Positions 437-14,570 of a stretch of 20,808 nucleotides of DNA are shown piece by piece. Source of the DNA: Prevotellaceae bacterium (lineage in GTDB: Bacteria > Bacteroidota > Bacteroidia > Bacteroidales > UBA932); the NCBI GenBank assembly GCA_031288885.1, contig JAITQP010000291.1, forward strand, positions 1-20,808, in the 5' to 3' direction. The position numbers and the translations under genes are program-made. The stretch's first letter is position 1, and the number at the start of each line of letters is the position of its first letter. The notes under the pieces were generated by a model, which saw only the letters and a program-made list of their open reading frames with translations, made no database searches and was not told where the DNA came from.

Positions 437-509
437 GTCTCCATCTGAGGCTCGAACTCAGGATCCCATCCTTAAAAGGGATGTGCTCTACCTGCTGAGC
501 TACTGAATC
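437..509 (-). tRNA. tRNA-Lys (anticodon TTT), acceptor stem poorly paired
   Basis: Read on the minus strand, all inner parts of a tRNA are present with standard spacing. The D arm is GCTC/GAGC, the anticodon stem is CATCC/GGATG around loop CTTTTAA (anticodon UUU, Lys), the variable loop has five bases, and the T arm is CTGAG-TTCGAGC-CTCAG. The acceptor stem does not close well: 5' GATTCAG faces 3' ATGGAGA, and only four of seven positions can pair, one of them a wobble. No CCA is encoded. It could be a functional but divergent tRNA, a decayed copy, or a gene whose 3' edge was replaced by recombination. Confidence 0.8.
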
Positions 510-3606: not shown

Positions 3607-3758
3607 GCACAAGTTGATGAAATATGCGCATTCTCCCCGAATAAATCTGGCGGCTGTTTTTGGATAATGTTGGTGAAAATCATATTACTATAAAAATATT
3701 ACGTAGCCTTATAGCCGCTTTTGCAGCAAAATTTGTGAGTGAAGATACTCAAGGCGTA

Positions 3759-3787
3759 CTAACCAACAAGATTTAGTTGTACCTTTG
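3759..3787 (+). promoter_or_regulatory. Promoter and likely operator of toxin-antitoxin locus 1
   Basis: TACCTTTG at 3780-3787 is a perfect -7 box. Just upstream, CTAA (3759-3762) and TTAG (3773-3776) form a split inverted repeat. The 15 bases 3773-3787 are identical to 6731-6745 ahead of the second locus, so the half-sites are candidates for antitoxin autoregulation. Confidence 0.55.
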
Positions 3788-3831
3788 CCGAAAGATACAA
3801 CCGAGAAACAACCCCAAAAAACATACAAATC

Positions 3832-4038
3832 ATGTTAGCAACAAAACCACAACCAGCAACGCAGCGTATGCCGGTTTACACACCGAGCAGCAACGACGCC
3901 CTCATTGACGACGATACGCTTATGACGAAGGAGGAGCTACATGCTACAATAGACAATGCGCTGAGAGAGGTAGCGCAGGGTAAATGTAGGGTAATTCGTT
4001 CAGACAAAGAGCTGCATGACTACTTCGCTTCGCTATAA
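3832..4038 (+). CDS. Antitoxin of YoeB-type locus 1
   Basis: The 68-residue acidic protein lies 17 bases upstream of a YoeB-family toxin. It has a Pro/Gln-rich start, then DDDTLMTKEELHATIDNAL (26-44) and VAQGKCRVI. The core DDTLMxKEE...D..L..V..GK is shared with the antitoxin at 6763-6987. It is not recognisable as a Phd/YefM antitoxin, the usual partner of YoeB, so the call rests on position and on the second copy. It would bind and neutralise the toxin and probably repress its own promoter. The start at 3832 follows a leader of about 40 bases. Confidence 0.7.
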   Translation: MLATKPQPATQRMPVYTPSSNDALIDDDTLMTKEELHATIDNALREVAQGKCRVIRSDKELHDYFASL

Positions 4039-4055: not shown

Positions 4056-4331
4056 ATGGAGTACGAACTCATTTTCCCCAAACAGGTGGAGAAAAAAATA
4101 GAGGCGCTCAAAAGAGATGAGCCGCAGGTGCACGAAAAGTTGCTGAAGCTTATAGCGGAGCTAAGAAAGCATCCCGAAGCTGGAACGGGGCACGTAAAAC
4201 CATTAAAGTGTAATTTGGCGGGATGCTATTCACGTAGAATAACGCAAAAGCACAGGCTGATTTACCAAATCAACAAAGAAGAACAAGCAGTATTGATAAT
4301 TGCTGTAGGAGGTCATTACGCCGACAAATGA
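4056..4331 (+). CDS. YoeB/Txe family toxin with a substituted catalytic glutamate
   Basis: The 91-residue protein is a RelE-superfamily ribosome-dependent mRNA endonuclease of the YoeB/Txe type. It shows GTGHVKPLK (43-51), YSRRITQKHRLIY (58-70) and the end GGHYADK. In E. coli YoeB the catalytic residues are Glu46, Arg65 and His83. Here Arg67 and His87 align, but the glutamate position (PEPL in the family) reads VKPL, giving Lys48. The usual WSRRI is YSRRI. The paralogue at 6975-7247 keeps both. The toxin may be weak, inactive or retained as a binding partner. It ends at 4331 and is followed by a terminator. Confidence 0.85.
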   Translation: MEYELIFPKQVEKKIEALKRDEPQVHEKLLKLIAELRKHPEAGTGHVKPLKCNLAGCYSRRITQKHRLIYQINKEEQAVLIIAVGGHYADK

Positions 4332-4545: not shown

Positions 4546-4629
<84 letters not shown>

Positions 4630-4648: not shown

Positions 4649-4732
4649 GCCCAGATGGCGAAATTGGTAGACGCACCACTTTGAGGGGGTGGCGCCGGTT
4701 ACGGTGTGCAAGTTCGAGTCTTGTTCTGGGCA
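4649..4732 (+). tRNA. tRNA-Leu (anticodon GAG)
   Basis: This is a class II tRNA of 84 bases. Acceptor arms GCCCAGA/TCTGGGC pair, the anticodon stem CCACT/GGTGG encloses TTGAGGG (anticodon GAG), and there is a long variable arm and a normal T arm. CCA is not encoded. It shares the transcript of the preceding tRNA-Leu and ends 10 bases before a strong terminator. Confidence 0.95.
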
Positions 4733-6694: not shown

Positions 6695-6720
6695 GCGAAA
6701 AGATGCTCAAAACGTGCCAG

Positions 6721-6745
6721 CTAATCCAAATTAGTTGTACCTTTG
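6721..6745 (+). promoter_or_regulatory. Promoter and likely operator of toxin-antitoxin locus 2
   Basis: CTAAT (6721-6725) and ATTAG (6730-6734) form an inverted repeat directly before TACCTTTG (6738-6745). The stretch 6731-6745 is identical to 3773-3787. The start of the antitoxin follows 17 bases after the -7 box, so the leader is very short. Confidence 0.55.
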
Positions 6746-6762
6746 TCAAAAACACACAAGCC

Positions 6763-6987
6763 ATGTTAGTAACACCACGCACCAAAGCAAAGCCGTATGA
6801 CGTCGGCTACGTACCGCACAGCGCATCGCATGATGATGAATATGACGATACGCTGATGAGCAAGGAAGAATTTTTTGCGGAAGTAGATCGCTCTTTGCAG
6901 CAGGTTAAAGAAGGGAAAGTACTCTATATGCTCCCCGAAGAAACGTTGGATGAATTTCTCATCAGAACACAAGGATGTATAGAGTAG
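6763..6987 (+). CDS. Antitoxin of YoeB-type locus 2
   Basis: The 74-residue acidic protein is related to the antitoxin at 3832. It shares DDTLMSKEEFFAEVDRSL (28-45) and VKEGKV and then has its own toxin-binding tail ending RTQGCIE. It overlaps the toxin gene by 13 bases, a sign of translational coupling. ATG 6763 matches the start context of locus 1 (both begin ML followed by Lys/Pro-rich residues). The longer frame from 6643 runs through the promoter and is rejected. No known antitoxin fold can be assigned with confidence. Confidence 0.7.
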   Translation: MLVTPRTKAKPYDVGYVPHSASHDDEYDDTLMSKEEFFAEVDRSLQQVKEGKVLYMLPEETLDEFLIRTQGCIE

Positions 6988-7247
6988 GTTTTACCATAAA
7001 AGCTCGAGAAGACGTCGCAAAGCTTGGCAGGTCAGAGCGGCAAGCGCACAAAAAATTTACACTGCTAATTCAGGAATTGTGCGAACACCCCGAAACCGGC
7101 ACAGGACACCCCGAACCATTAGGAGGTAGCAGAGCGGGGCAATGGTCGAGGAGAATAACGCAAAAACATCGTCTCGTTTACCTGATTAACAAAGAAGAAA
7201 TGGAGGTGCTTGTGATTTCTGCGTATGGTCACTATGATGATAAATAG
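6975..7247 (+). CDS. YoeB/Txe family toxin
   Basis: The 90-residue protein is a YoeB-type mRNA interferase acting on ribosome-bound mRNA. GTGHPEPL (42-49) holds the catalytic Glu47, WSRRITQKHRLVY (57-69) holds Arg66, and SAYGHYDDK ends the protein with His86. All three residues known from E. coli YoeB (Glu46, Arg65, His83) are therefore present, unlike in locus 1. It is about 50 percent identical by eye to the toxin at 4056-4331. It overlaps the antitoxin frame and is followed by the hairpin at 7285-7325. Confidence 0.9.
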   Translation: MYRVGFTIKAREDVAKLGRSERQAHKKFTLLIQELCEHPETGTGHPEPLGGSRAGQWSRRITQKHRLVYLINKEEMEVLVISAYGHYDDK

Positions 7248-7284
7248 CAAATTTGCTTGAGGTGTGCCAACACCGGCGCTACAC

Positions 7285-7325
7285 AACAAGGAGAATGGAA
7301 GTTGCTTACTTCCATTCTCCTTGTT
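7285..7325. terminator. Perfect 17-bp inverted repeat between convergent genes
   Basis: Bases 7285-7301 and 7309-7325 pair perfectly around loop TTGCTTA. It sits between the toxin stop (7247) and the stop of the minus-strand gene at 7358, so it fits a two-way terminator, although neither side has a long T run. A stem just beyond the variable region is also seen in some DGR targets. Confidence 0.65.
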
Positions 7326-7357
7326 TGCTTATCCTGTAGGAACGCCGGCAAGAAAAG

Positions 7358-8068
7358 TTAAGGCAAAACCACGCGGAAGCCAATGCTGTTGTTGCGGATG
7401 TTGGGGATATTGTAGTGGCGGGCAGCAACGCGAGACCAGGGGGCGGCATCGCCGGTGTAGCACTTGCCATCGGTGGGCTGAACGTCGGTCGTCCCGTTGC
7501 ACTCAATCTGAAACGTGCCGCCCTCCACGCGCACCATCTCAATATCCAGCTCCGCGGGGTAGCTACGCGCGGGAGCGGGGGCGTTGTGCCTACGCTCTGG
7601 ACCGTCCAGCTGTCGCGTTAGCGCCTGCGCTACCCGCGGCAGGTCTGTGCTGACCACGCCGGTGCGAATGTAGCTGCCTCTGCCGGAAACTTTGCTATCT
7701 TTTGCGTCAATGAGGTGCGCATAAAACATGTGGTCGCTACCTTTGATAGCATCAGCTACCAAGCATATCGTAGATATGCCGTTTGTGCGCCCCCATGCGG
7801 CAAGCGCGTTTCGGTCTATGTTGCCTGCACCTTGCGTGCGCAGCTCGGTGAACTTTGCCTGCACAGCGGCGTCATTGGTTGCTACCGTGTAGCGGCTGTT
7901 GCGGTTCAACTCGCTGCCTATCTGGGTGGCAAGCGCATCGCCCAGCGTGTTGTCCATGCCTACCACAAGTACTGCCAACTTAGGCGCGGCTTGTGCTCTG
8001 GCGGTCATCATGCTCACTGCTCCAACGAGCAGCAAAGCACATAAAGAAATCTTGTAATTCTGTTTCAT
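7358..8068 (-). CDS. Exported protein with shortened SUMF/FGE-like C-terminus; candidate DGR target
   Basis: The protein has 236 residues from ATG 8068. Residues 1-27 are a signal peptide (MKQNYKISLC start, hydrophobic core, ARAQA). Residues 29-156 form an alpha/beta domain (KLAVLVVGMDN, TLGDALATQIGSELNRN, STICLVADAI) resembling periplasmic CsgG/LpoB-like domains; this likeness is tentative. After a Pro/Ala linker, MVRVEGGTF (178-186) is the usual start of a SUMF/formylglycine-enzyme domain and NNSIGFRVVLP (226-236) its usual end. The roughly 150-200 residues normally between them, with the catalytic cysteines, are absent. Codons before the end are GCC, CAC, TAC, AAT, ATC, AAC, ATC, AAC, AAC, AGC, as expected if AAC codons had been changed at adenines. 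The frame continues to 8290 upstream, but the signal peptide fixes the start. Confidence 0.7.
   Translation of the reverse strand: MKQNYKISLCALLLVGAVSMMTARAQAAPKLAVLVVGMDNTLGDALATQIGSELNRNSRYTVATNDAAVQAKFTELRTQGAGNIDRNALAAWGRTNGISTICLVADAIKGSDHMFYAHLIDAKDSKVSGRGSYIRTGVVSTDLPRVAQALTRQLDGPERRHNAPAPARSYPAELDIEMVRVEGGTFQIECNGTTDVQPTDGKCYTGDAAPWSRVAARHYNIPNIRNNSIGFRVVLP
7361..7459 (-). other. Putative DGR variable region (VR-like)
   Basis: Residues 204-236 of the exported protein include WSRVAARHYN and IPNIRNNSIGF. Nearly all candidate variable codons are NNC or NNT, differing from AAC/AAT only at the first two bases. The fixed part GGCTTCCGC-GTGGTT near the stop would be the place of the initiation-of-homing site. 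No template copy and no reverse transcriptase are in the window, so this is a hypothesis. Confidence 0.4.
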
Positions 8069-9621: not shown

Positions 9622-9808
9622 CAGCTTAATTCTTAATCACGTTGTTGCAACGCAGCCTTGCTCCCATCATTGCTCACGCCTCGCGTCATTGCGAGCAAAG
9701 CGTGCGGGGACAGAAACATGCGAGGAGATTTCTCGCTCCGCTCGAAATGACGGCAAGGGCGGGCATCGTTGCAACAAAGTCATTCCTAATTCTTAATTCC
9801 TAATTCTC
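9622..9808 (-). repeat. Heptamer repeat tract split by an inserted element
   Basis: GAATTAA/GAATTAG units occur at 9781-9808, where they form the last codons and stop of gldF, and again at 9622-9638. The 139-base inverted-repeat element lies between, as if it had inserted into one tract. Confidence 0.5.
9641..9779. mobile_element. Small MITE-like element with terminal inverted repeats
   Basis: The ends GTTGTTGCAACG (9641-9652) and CGTTGCAACAAAG (9767-9779) are inverted copies of TTTGTTGCAACG. Inside, 9684-9702 and 9734-9752 pair at 16 of 19 positions (CGTCATT...AATGACG). No ORF is present. A related element lies at 14411-14485. Whether it moves is not shown; it may instead be a REP-like palindrome. 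Confidence 0.45.
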
Positions 9809-13540: not shown

Positions 13541-13858
13541 CTACAGCCCCAACCCAAACATGGCTGCAATCGTTCCAAACACCGTTAAGAGCAAAATCAA
13601 GTCAACCACCGACAGGATAAAACCGGTAATCGCAAGTCCCTTTGGGCTTTTGAACAGCCCCACAGACGAGAGGACAAGGCCTAATACCCATAAAATCCAC
13701 CCGAAGACGGGTATCCACCCAAGAAAAACGGCTAATAAGGCCAGCACAAACCCCGCCGTGCCAACCCCATTTGACGCTTGCTCTACTTGGTTAACAATGA
13801 TTGTCTGACCATTTTGCTGTGAGCCCTGCTCACCGCTGTTTGTTGTAACTTCTGACAT
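13541..13858 (-). CDS. Small membrane protein (DUF4190-like)
   Basis: The 105-residue protein has a polar Gln/Ser/Asn-rich N-terminus (1-30). Three membrane segments follow at about 34-49, 52-69 and 76-100. The pattern is GTAGFVLALLAVFLGWIPVFGWILWVLG, then SPKGLAITGFILSV. This resembles small DUF4190-type membrane proteins, in which G-x-A-x-x-G-F-x-L segments repeat. No function is known. ATG 13858 gives the only sensible N-terminus. It stands alone, convergent with the TPR gene. No clear -7 box was found upstream in 13859-13960. Confidence 0.7.
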   Translation of the reverse strand: MSEVTTNSGEQGSQQNGQTIIVNQVEQASNGVGTAGFVLALLAVFLGWIPVFGWILWVLGLVLSSVGLFKSPKGLAITGFILSVVDLILLLTVFGTIAAMFGLGL

Positions 13859-14041
13859 AAGATTAAATTTTGAATGTTCTGCCTACTCTTTACAGGATTT
13901 TCGGCATACCTCCTTTTATTTGGCTACAATTAACCACAAAATAACAACATTATTCTGAAATAACCAAATATTTCTTCAGCTGTATGAAAAATTGCAAAAT
14001 TCACATTTCGGCGTTGTTGATTTTTAGCAACGATAAAGATG

Positions 14042-14118
14042 TTGATTATACAAACAAAACTACTACCTTTGTTATCGTATATGATAATATCATATATGGT
14101 ATTATCATATACGATAAC
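14042..14118 (+). promoter_or_regulatory. Promoter with a 19-bp palindromic operator for the DUF2281 gene
   Basis: TTG (14042-14044), 19 bases, TACCTTTG (14064-14071) is a full consensus promoter. Starting at the last base of the -7 box, 14071-14089 (GTTATCGTATATGATAATA) is repeated in perfect inverted form at 14100-14118, with a 10-base spacer. A repressor bound here would cover the transcription start. The leader from there to ATG 14129 is short. The rest of the 270-base gap from 13859 shows nothing else. Confidence 0.75.
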
Positions 14119-14128
14119 ATCACGCATC

Positions 14129-14340: not shown

Positions 14341-14570
14341 CACCATCATTGCTACGCTCCGCTTACAATGGCGAAATTGCATTAGGCGTATTATTAGCCC
14401 ATTACAAAGACGTTGTTGCAACGATGAACGCCGTAGGCGTTGCGTTCCGGTGCCATGATGGGGATAACGTATCGCTGCAACAAAGCACATTACAAGCTTC
14501 GTCTTTCCCCTTTTTACCCGTATATGGGTTCGGGGCTCGCAATGACGCGAGGCGTGCCTCTCCGTTAATG
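14341..14570. repeat. Repeat-rich gap between DUF2281 gene and carB
   Basis: The 388 bases from 14333 to 14720 hold no gene. They contain CATTG...CAATG stems near 14347-14374, a small inverted-repeat element (14411-14485), and a 22-base segment at 14535-14556 that is the exact reverse complement of 9675-9696. The carB promoter region follows. Confidence 0.5.
14411..14485. mobile_element. Second small element with GTTGTTGCAACG-type ends
   Basis: CGTTGTTGCAACG (14411-14423) and CGCTGCAACAAAG (14473-14485) are inverted ends like those at 9641-9779. CATTACAA occurs just outside both ends (14400-14407 and 14488-14495), as a target duplication would. The inside differs from the first copy and holds the hairpin AACGCC-GTA-GGCGTT. 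Confidence 0.45.

Follow-up and report, generated by a model that had tools for sequence, protein, structure and literature searches.

In diversity-generating retroelements (DGRs) of the HRDC type, the first ~26-30 nt after the template (TR) recur in most loci examined (52 of 65), reverse-complemented, right after the variable region (VR) of the target gene. Judged from sequence comparison, it is an evenly balanced proposition that these DGRs choose their targets by RNA-guided docking, with the spacer behind the TR antisense to the DNA behind the VR. What is new here is the inverted flank, along with the large target set of the source genome, and not the gene that had been flagged at 7361-8068 of the window (the whole stretch of 20,808 nt that was analyzed), which alone is a modest result, a decayed member of a family. 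We think it quite probable that this gene is a decayed target of an HRDC-type DGR serving many dispersed genes, and the preliminary description, which had proposed a DGR target from the sequence alone, was right in kind and is partly supported. The inverted flank is not described in the available portions of PMC3240598, PMC3521204, PMC4891356, PMC12875486, PMC10907252, PMC8144416, PMC4372165, PMC8867640 and PMC7517822, and may be published elsewhere.

Targets, reverse transcriptases and templates in the source genome

The source genome is a 79% complete MAG of 2.49 Mb in 320 contigs, of which the window is contig C320. The window protein gave 73 matches in this genome at E <= 10, the best 30 of which (window protein included) had E <= 1.6e-45, and the FGE-sulfatase family PF03781 gave 58 matches. 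Fifty-one of these 58 rows are genes with a VR-type C-terminus, one of them, on C120, with an internal TAG; the rows dropped were two targets whose contig ends before the VR (C170:5884, C74), two TR copies (C170:4003, C235:11741), the second piece of the C88 gene and two genes with different ends (C315, C185). Together with the window gene there are 52 visible VR-type genes, where ‘VR-type’ denotes a common C-terminal frame and activity is putative, in agreement with the earlier assignment of the window protein’s C-terminus to a DGR target family. The model of a full-length paralogue (mean pLDDT 84) had as its best PDB match the Treponema denticola variable protein 2y3c (E 3.4e-19). A second species of the genus (G001) holds 18 matches to the target family and no match to the C67 reverse transcriptase (RT) of the source genome at E <= 1e-10; its targets may be served by another RT, or the RT may be missing from the assembly.

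The machinery, which the preliminary description had placed elsewhere in the genome, was indeed found there, as two DGR-type RTs and two TRs. RVT_1 had two matches: an RT of 336 aa on C67, with a YMDD motif, whose gene overlaps that of an HRDC protein (E 1.9e-15), and a second RT, 80% identical to the first, which is truncated where C272 begins. Among named RTs, the nearest relatives (best 67% identical) are mostly from Bacteroidota and Chlorobi, and in the two related loci read the gene order is target with VR, HRDC, RT, TR. No TR was seen directly behind either RT of the source genome, as it is in the relatives; the two TR modules lie away from the RTs, TR-A on C235, where a target gene precedes it by ~240 nt, and TR-B on C170, and the spacer that stands behind the relatives’ TRs is also present behind both. 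A covariance model of this spacer found TR-A and TR-B, whose scores follow by construction because both were in the model’s alignment, and nothing else in the genome below E = 2. TR-B has G at several sites where TR-A has A. TR-B (L210:1003-1342) also carries an in-frame TAG that recurs in its copy at C120 (L076:541-679), and this template can therefore put a stop into a rewritten gene. The proposed genome check for a template and an RT accordingly brought out RTs and TRs, though no TR of the window gene’s own VR class (class 1) was found in the 79% complete assembly with an inferred query or the spacer covariance model; the matches of the inferred query were VRs and the known TRs.

At least one VR bears the trace of an A-specific transfer. 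Compared with TR-B, the C120 VR is changed at 7/23 A and 1/100 other positions (p = 2.4e-5), with the TAG kept, and TR-A differs from the neighboring VR at 17/29 A and 17/94 other positions (p = 5e-5). When each of 42 VRs was set against whichever TR was nearer, p < 0.05 resulted for 35, the nearer TR being chosen by fewest non-A changes, which mildly favors an A-biased result. At the level of the genome there are thus a DGR-type RT, an HRDC accessory gene and a non-coding TR with A-specific VR change. The window VR, for which the two TRs are of another class, differs from them at 11/23 A and 31/96 non-A positions (p = 0.12) and is among the 7/42 that were not significant. Among nine class-1 paralogues, mean VR entropy at codon positions 1, 2 and 3 was 0.87, 0.81 and 0.46, whereas the segment upstream of the VR in the same nine showed the reverse trend (0.68, 0.52 and 0.83); set against these nine, the window VR (22 codons) has 10.1, 8.6 and 4.1 differing sites at codon positions 1, 2 and 3. 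Beside its paralogues, then, the AAC-type codon pattern first noticed in the window gene exceeds chance, the nine class-1 VRs varying mostly at codon positions 1 and 2. GCC, which had been listed with the variable codons, is not a variable site, because it is near-invariant in class 1. A leave-one-out A-test was discarded because its rule favors A by construction; a control segment also gave p < 0.05 in 9/10.

The window gene

The CDS, C-terminus and codon list are present in the sequence as first described, the protein ending in RHYNIPNIRNNSIGFRVVLP; Table 1 gives the layout. A hydrophobic N-terminus is visible on reading the protein sequence, making export putative. The structure model is confident at residues 31-150 (pLDDT 92-97) and drops to pLDDT 44-69 from ~residue 161 onward, and Foldseek with the N-domain gave TolB, PelC, GNA1162 and LpoB as best matches. 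Pfam detected a sub-threshold FGE tail only (12 bits vs a cut-off of 23.3). Alignment with paralogue proteins recovered the N-terminal portion and ~30 residues at the C-terminal end, with the FGE core absent; on this point the preliminary description, which had associated the C-terminus with a SUMF/FGE-type fold, was not borne out. At the DNA level, blastn matches of the CDS to loci of its own genome run out at about CDS nt 575 and begin again at about 613-630, the ~38-nt linker in between matching none of the own-genome paralogue loci compared, and the class-1 paralogue VRs are 76-81% identical to the VR remnant.

Table 1. Layout of the window gene and of the DNA behind it (window positions).
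Feature	Positions	Strand	Basis or remark
CDS, shortened DGR-target paralogue	7361-8068	-	236 aa without stop; stop 7358-7360
N-terminal domain, residues ~29-155	7604-7984	-	TolB/PelC/LpoB-like in model
Linker without paralogue match, at site of missing FGE core	7457-7494	-	blastn and protein alignment
VR remnant, class 1, ends GFRVVLP	7361-7456	-	Paralogue DNA identity; codon-position pattern
Site of reverse-complement TR-spacer copy in paralogues	7323-7356	-	Here eroded likeness by eye; score equals chance
Perfect 18-bp stem-loop behind gene	7285-7325	-	Arms 7285-7302 and 7308-7325, 5-nt loop

Descent from the target family is supported by the paralogue matches and alignments. The variable residues, however, no longer sit on a C-lectin fold (the core is absent and the tail has pLDDT 44-69), and behind the VR there is an 18-bp stem with loop AAGCA and an inverted-flank score of 12 in place of a target signal. 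The window gene is thus a DGR target by descent, which as a working target fails on fold and target signal and has no template of its own in the assembly. With the core gone and no docking site to be detected, this copy has probably ceased to be of use as a target.

The missing core could also be an assembly fault, which is a point against the decay reading. We regard a chimaera, in which the core was lost when near-identical paralogue reads were joined, as unlikely: the fragmented MAG of 320 contigs does contain many similar paralogues, and among the matches listed the exact protein occurs on one contig only (the next match is 87% identical), but the ~38-nt linker matches no compared paralogue stretch, and a simple mis-join would not make it. 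Somewhat less credible still is a live compact target, in which a short diversified tail on the N-terminal domain has replaced the lectin domain; in its favor are the open frame and the codon pattern retained in the VR remnant, yet the tail is modeled at pLDDT 44-69, the inverted flank is absent behind the gene, and there is no second compact form among the matches listed (85 relatives, all but a few of which carry PF03781). That this is an ordinary family which owes its pattern to gene conversion, without any DGR at work, is hardly tenable in light of the RT, HRDC gene, TRs, C120 transfer and codon-position pattern.

A perfect stem lies ~33 bases past the stop of the window gene, as had been noted, its length being 18 bp instead of the 17 given, and RNA folding of 7262-7365 gave z = -6.5 vs 200 shuffles. 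Its proposed role as a DGR target signal is not borne out here, because the VR flanks of related HRDC-type loci lack stems of at least 7 bp within 60 nt (0/65). As a DGR cruciform, moreover, its size and its loop AAGCA do not fit, the BPP-1-type signal used for comparison being a short GC-rich cis hairpin with a GRNA loop. Stems of at least 10 bp stand behind 10/52 targets vs 11/500 random stretches, and stem and inverted flank tend, weakly, to exclude each other (1/10 vs 21/42, p = 0.03). From its position, the 18-bp stem is probably a transcript end signal; a consensus terminator scan called no terminator at it, so this assignment draws on position and on the stems behind nine other targets. 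Long perfect stems with a common AACCCTAACAGG-like sequence lie downstream of the C304, C103, C195, C282:4724, C240 and C236 targets.

Elsewhere in the window we observed two type II toxin-like ORFs (YoeB/ParE) at 4056-4331 (+; E 1.5e-15) and 6975-7247 (+; E 6.9e-18), the DNA ahead of which is partly similar (3742-3793 vs 6700-6751, 73%; 3910-3935 vs 6844-6869, 85%). A match to the Rfam family DUF805b RNA (RF02914; 43.5 bits, cut-off 35.6) at 13880-13915 (-) stands just ahead of the ORF at 13541-13858 (-). There are also three tRNA matches, at 4546-4629 (+), 4649-4732 (+) and 445-502 (-), the first two being a tandem pair with 80% likeness; a perfect 22-bp inverted repeat at two distant intergenic sites, 9675-9696 and 14535-14556; and a 25-bp near-perfect palindrome at 14070-14119.

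The inverted flank in related loci

We examined the inverted flank in 80 loci of RT relatives, in which a script search for A-biased repeat pairs found a TR/VR pair in 67, 65 of them with flanks long enough; 13 loci without a repeat pair and two with short flanks were left out. Each TR flank was locally aligned to the reverse complement of the VR flank and the alignment scored; 52 of the 65 HRDC-type loci reached the threshold of at least 24. Cognate flanks had a median score of 31 vs 14 for non-cognate ones, partner permutation equaled this in 0/2000, and the cognate VR flank was the best-scoring of all 65 in 35 loci. Forward flank scores exceeded 20 in L121, L137 and L187 only, where the two flanks match in direct orientation as well. 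The inverted match mostly starts at TR+1 and spans ~VR+1 to VR+35.

The departures from a perfect match were directional. Duplicate aligned pairs were dropped, which left 50. Mismatches that keep a G-U type pair were found in 42/381 G/T contexts and those that break it in 3/414 A/C contexts (p = 3e-11), although p-values here overstate independence because the loci are related to each other; within TR+1 to +13 alone, changes that keep the pair outnumbered those that break it by 10 vs 0. Wobble does not explain 18 T-to-A changes in the inverted flank. Predicted duplex energy had a median of -41.2 kcal/mol for cognate pairs, compared with -20.5 for non-cognate and -17.8 for shuffled ones. The TR spacer itself contains a 4-bp stem, its loop mostly GGAY, with compensatory changes at 2/4 pairs.

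For 13 loci the score was below 24. With wider flanks, six of them (L119, L125, L126, L130, L141, L159) beat 100 shuffles, the match of L119 being displaced to VR+73, while seven of the 65 (L137, L169, L181, L183, L186, L195, L197) were without an inverted flank even then; mis-set repeat ends were accordingly rejected as the cause of all misses. The accessory ORFs of 10 loci, followers of the flank and exceptions alike, were all HRDC, and the inverted flank is therefore frequent, not universal, in the HRDC type. A held-out test on 28 phylum-scan loci gave 16 with a pair, 13 of whose TR flanks were already in the first set, and of the three new loci one fits. In the source genome, the 99% level set by 3000 random stretches is passed by 22 of the 52 VR flanks and missed by 30, the latter including that of the window gene (score 12, background mean 12.6).

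Two other groups served as controls, with 15/67 BPP-1-type and 8/80 third-group loci dropped without a usable pair. Inverted-flank scores of at least 24 occurred in 0/52 BPP-1-type phage DGRs and in 1/72 of the third, viral DGR group; among the HRDC-type RTs there was no confirmed viral contig. Cis hairpins had a stem of at least 7 bp in 14/52 BPP-1-type loci and of 6 bp in 29 more, and a stem of at least 6 bp in 6/72 of the third group. The third group is thus often without either feature, and ‘inverted flank instead of hairpin’ is therefore a contrast with the BPP-1 group only. In the BPP-1-type group the cognate mean was 14.8 vs 13.8 for non-cognate pairs (0/2000 permutations), and BPP-1 itself scored 23 vs a maximum of 22 in 200 shuffles; a faint trace of the inverted flank may therefore exist in this group, as far as these alignments indicate.

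Target choice in HRDC-type DGRs

According to the available part of PMC12875486, it is incompletely understood how the cDNA of a DGR locates its target and gets into it. As described there for BPP-1, cDNA synthesis is primed by a spacer adenine; the cDNA remains joined to the TR-RNA and is thought to pair with the exposed target strand. In the docking that we propose for the HRDC type, reverse transcription of the TR-RNA would introduce errors at A, and the resulting cDNA would replace the VR in trans, the target being chosen by the common 3' end of the VR together with pairing of the TR-RNA spacer behind it. The first ~26-30 nt of the spacer would pair with the strand directly behind the VR, the same one with which the cDNA pairs, which would place the cDNA next to its own RNA on a single DNA strand. 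This docking site may, with about equal weight for and against, stand where BPP-1-type phage DGRs have their cis hairpin, and allow a few templates and one RT to serve dozens of dispersed genes. In BPP-1 the stem sequence downstream of the VR can vary, going by what was available of PMC3240598, and pairing is therefore not needed there.

The main rival, possible if clearly less favored, is that the TR-RNA acts as an antisense regulator of target mRNAs, with the flank in their 3' UTR. Base pairs and wobble bias would be no different under this reading, but the match begins exactly where TR/VR homology ends, on both sides, for which retrohoming is the simpler explanation. That the flank is a functionless leftover of an old inverted duplication, passed on by inheritance, seems improbable: although the loci are related and the held-out test was nearly empty, partner permutation (0/2000), the best rank of the cognate flank in 35 of 65 loci and departures that mainly keep wobble pairs all speak against it.

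Among known systems, the T. denticola TvpA DGR (PMC4891356, seen in part; PDB 2y3c) is similar in having an HRDC gene that overlaps the RT, dispersed targets and an FGE-like variable protein. It has two to seven targets per isolate, whereas the source genome has 52 visible VRs, TRs apart from its RTs and a TolB/PelC-like N-domain. The HRDC-type DGRs of Bacteroidota and Chlorobi (L118-L197) share RTs up to 67% identical, the same TR spacer, HRDC in 11/11 accessory ORFs tested and, in the loci read, FGE-like targets; they differ in that the TR follows the RT in most of those loci that have a pair, whereas the RTs of the source genome have no adjoining TR. The BPP-1 DGR (NC_005357; PMC3240598 and PMC12875486, as far as available) is alike in RT, TR, VR, IMH logic and A-specific change, and unlike in its Avd accessory, its cis hairpin behind the VR and its lack of a clear inverted TR flank. 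Thiohalocapsa PB-PSB1 (15 targets; PMC10907252) and Trichodesmium (18 loci with TR/VR homology; PMC8867640) likewise have dispersed targets, incomplete loci and proposed action in trans; they have fewer targets, the accessible parts of both papers do not mention an inverted flank, and they are known with population data, whereas the source genome is known from assembly alone.

With 52 visible VR-type genes, the target set of this genome is larger than the 7, 15 and 18 given in the available portions of PMC4891356, PMC10907252 and PMC8867640, the three reports with which it was compared. The inverted flank offers a sequence rule for locating remote targets, and a short antisense site shared between template spacer and target flank would be a testable answer to the question of how targets are found in one large cellular group of DGRs.
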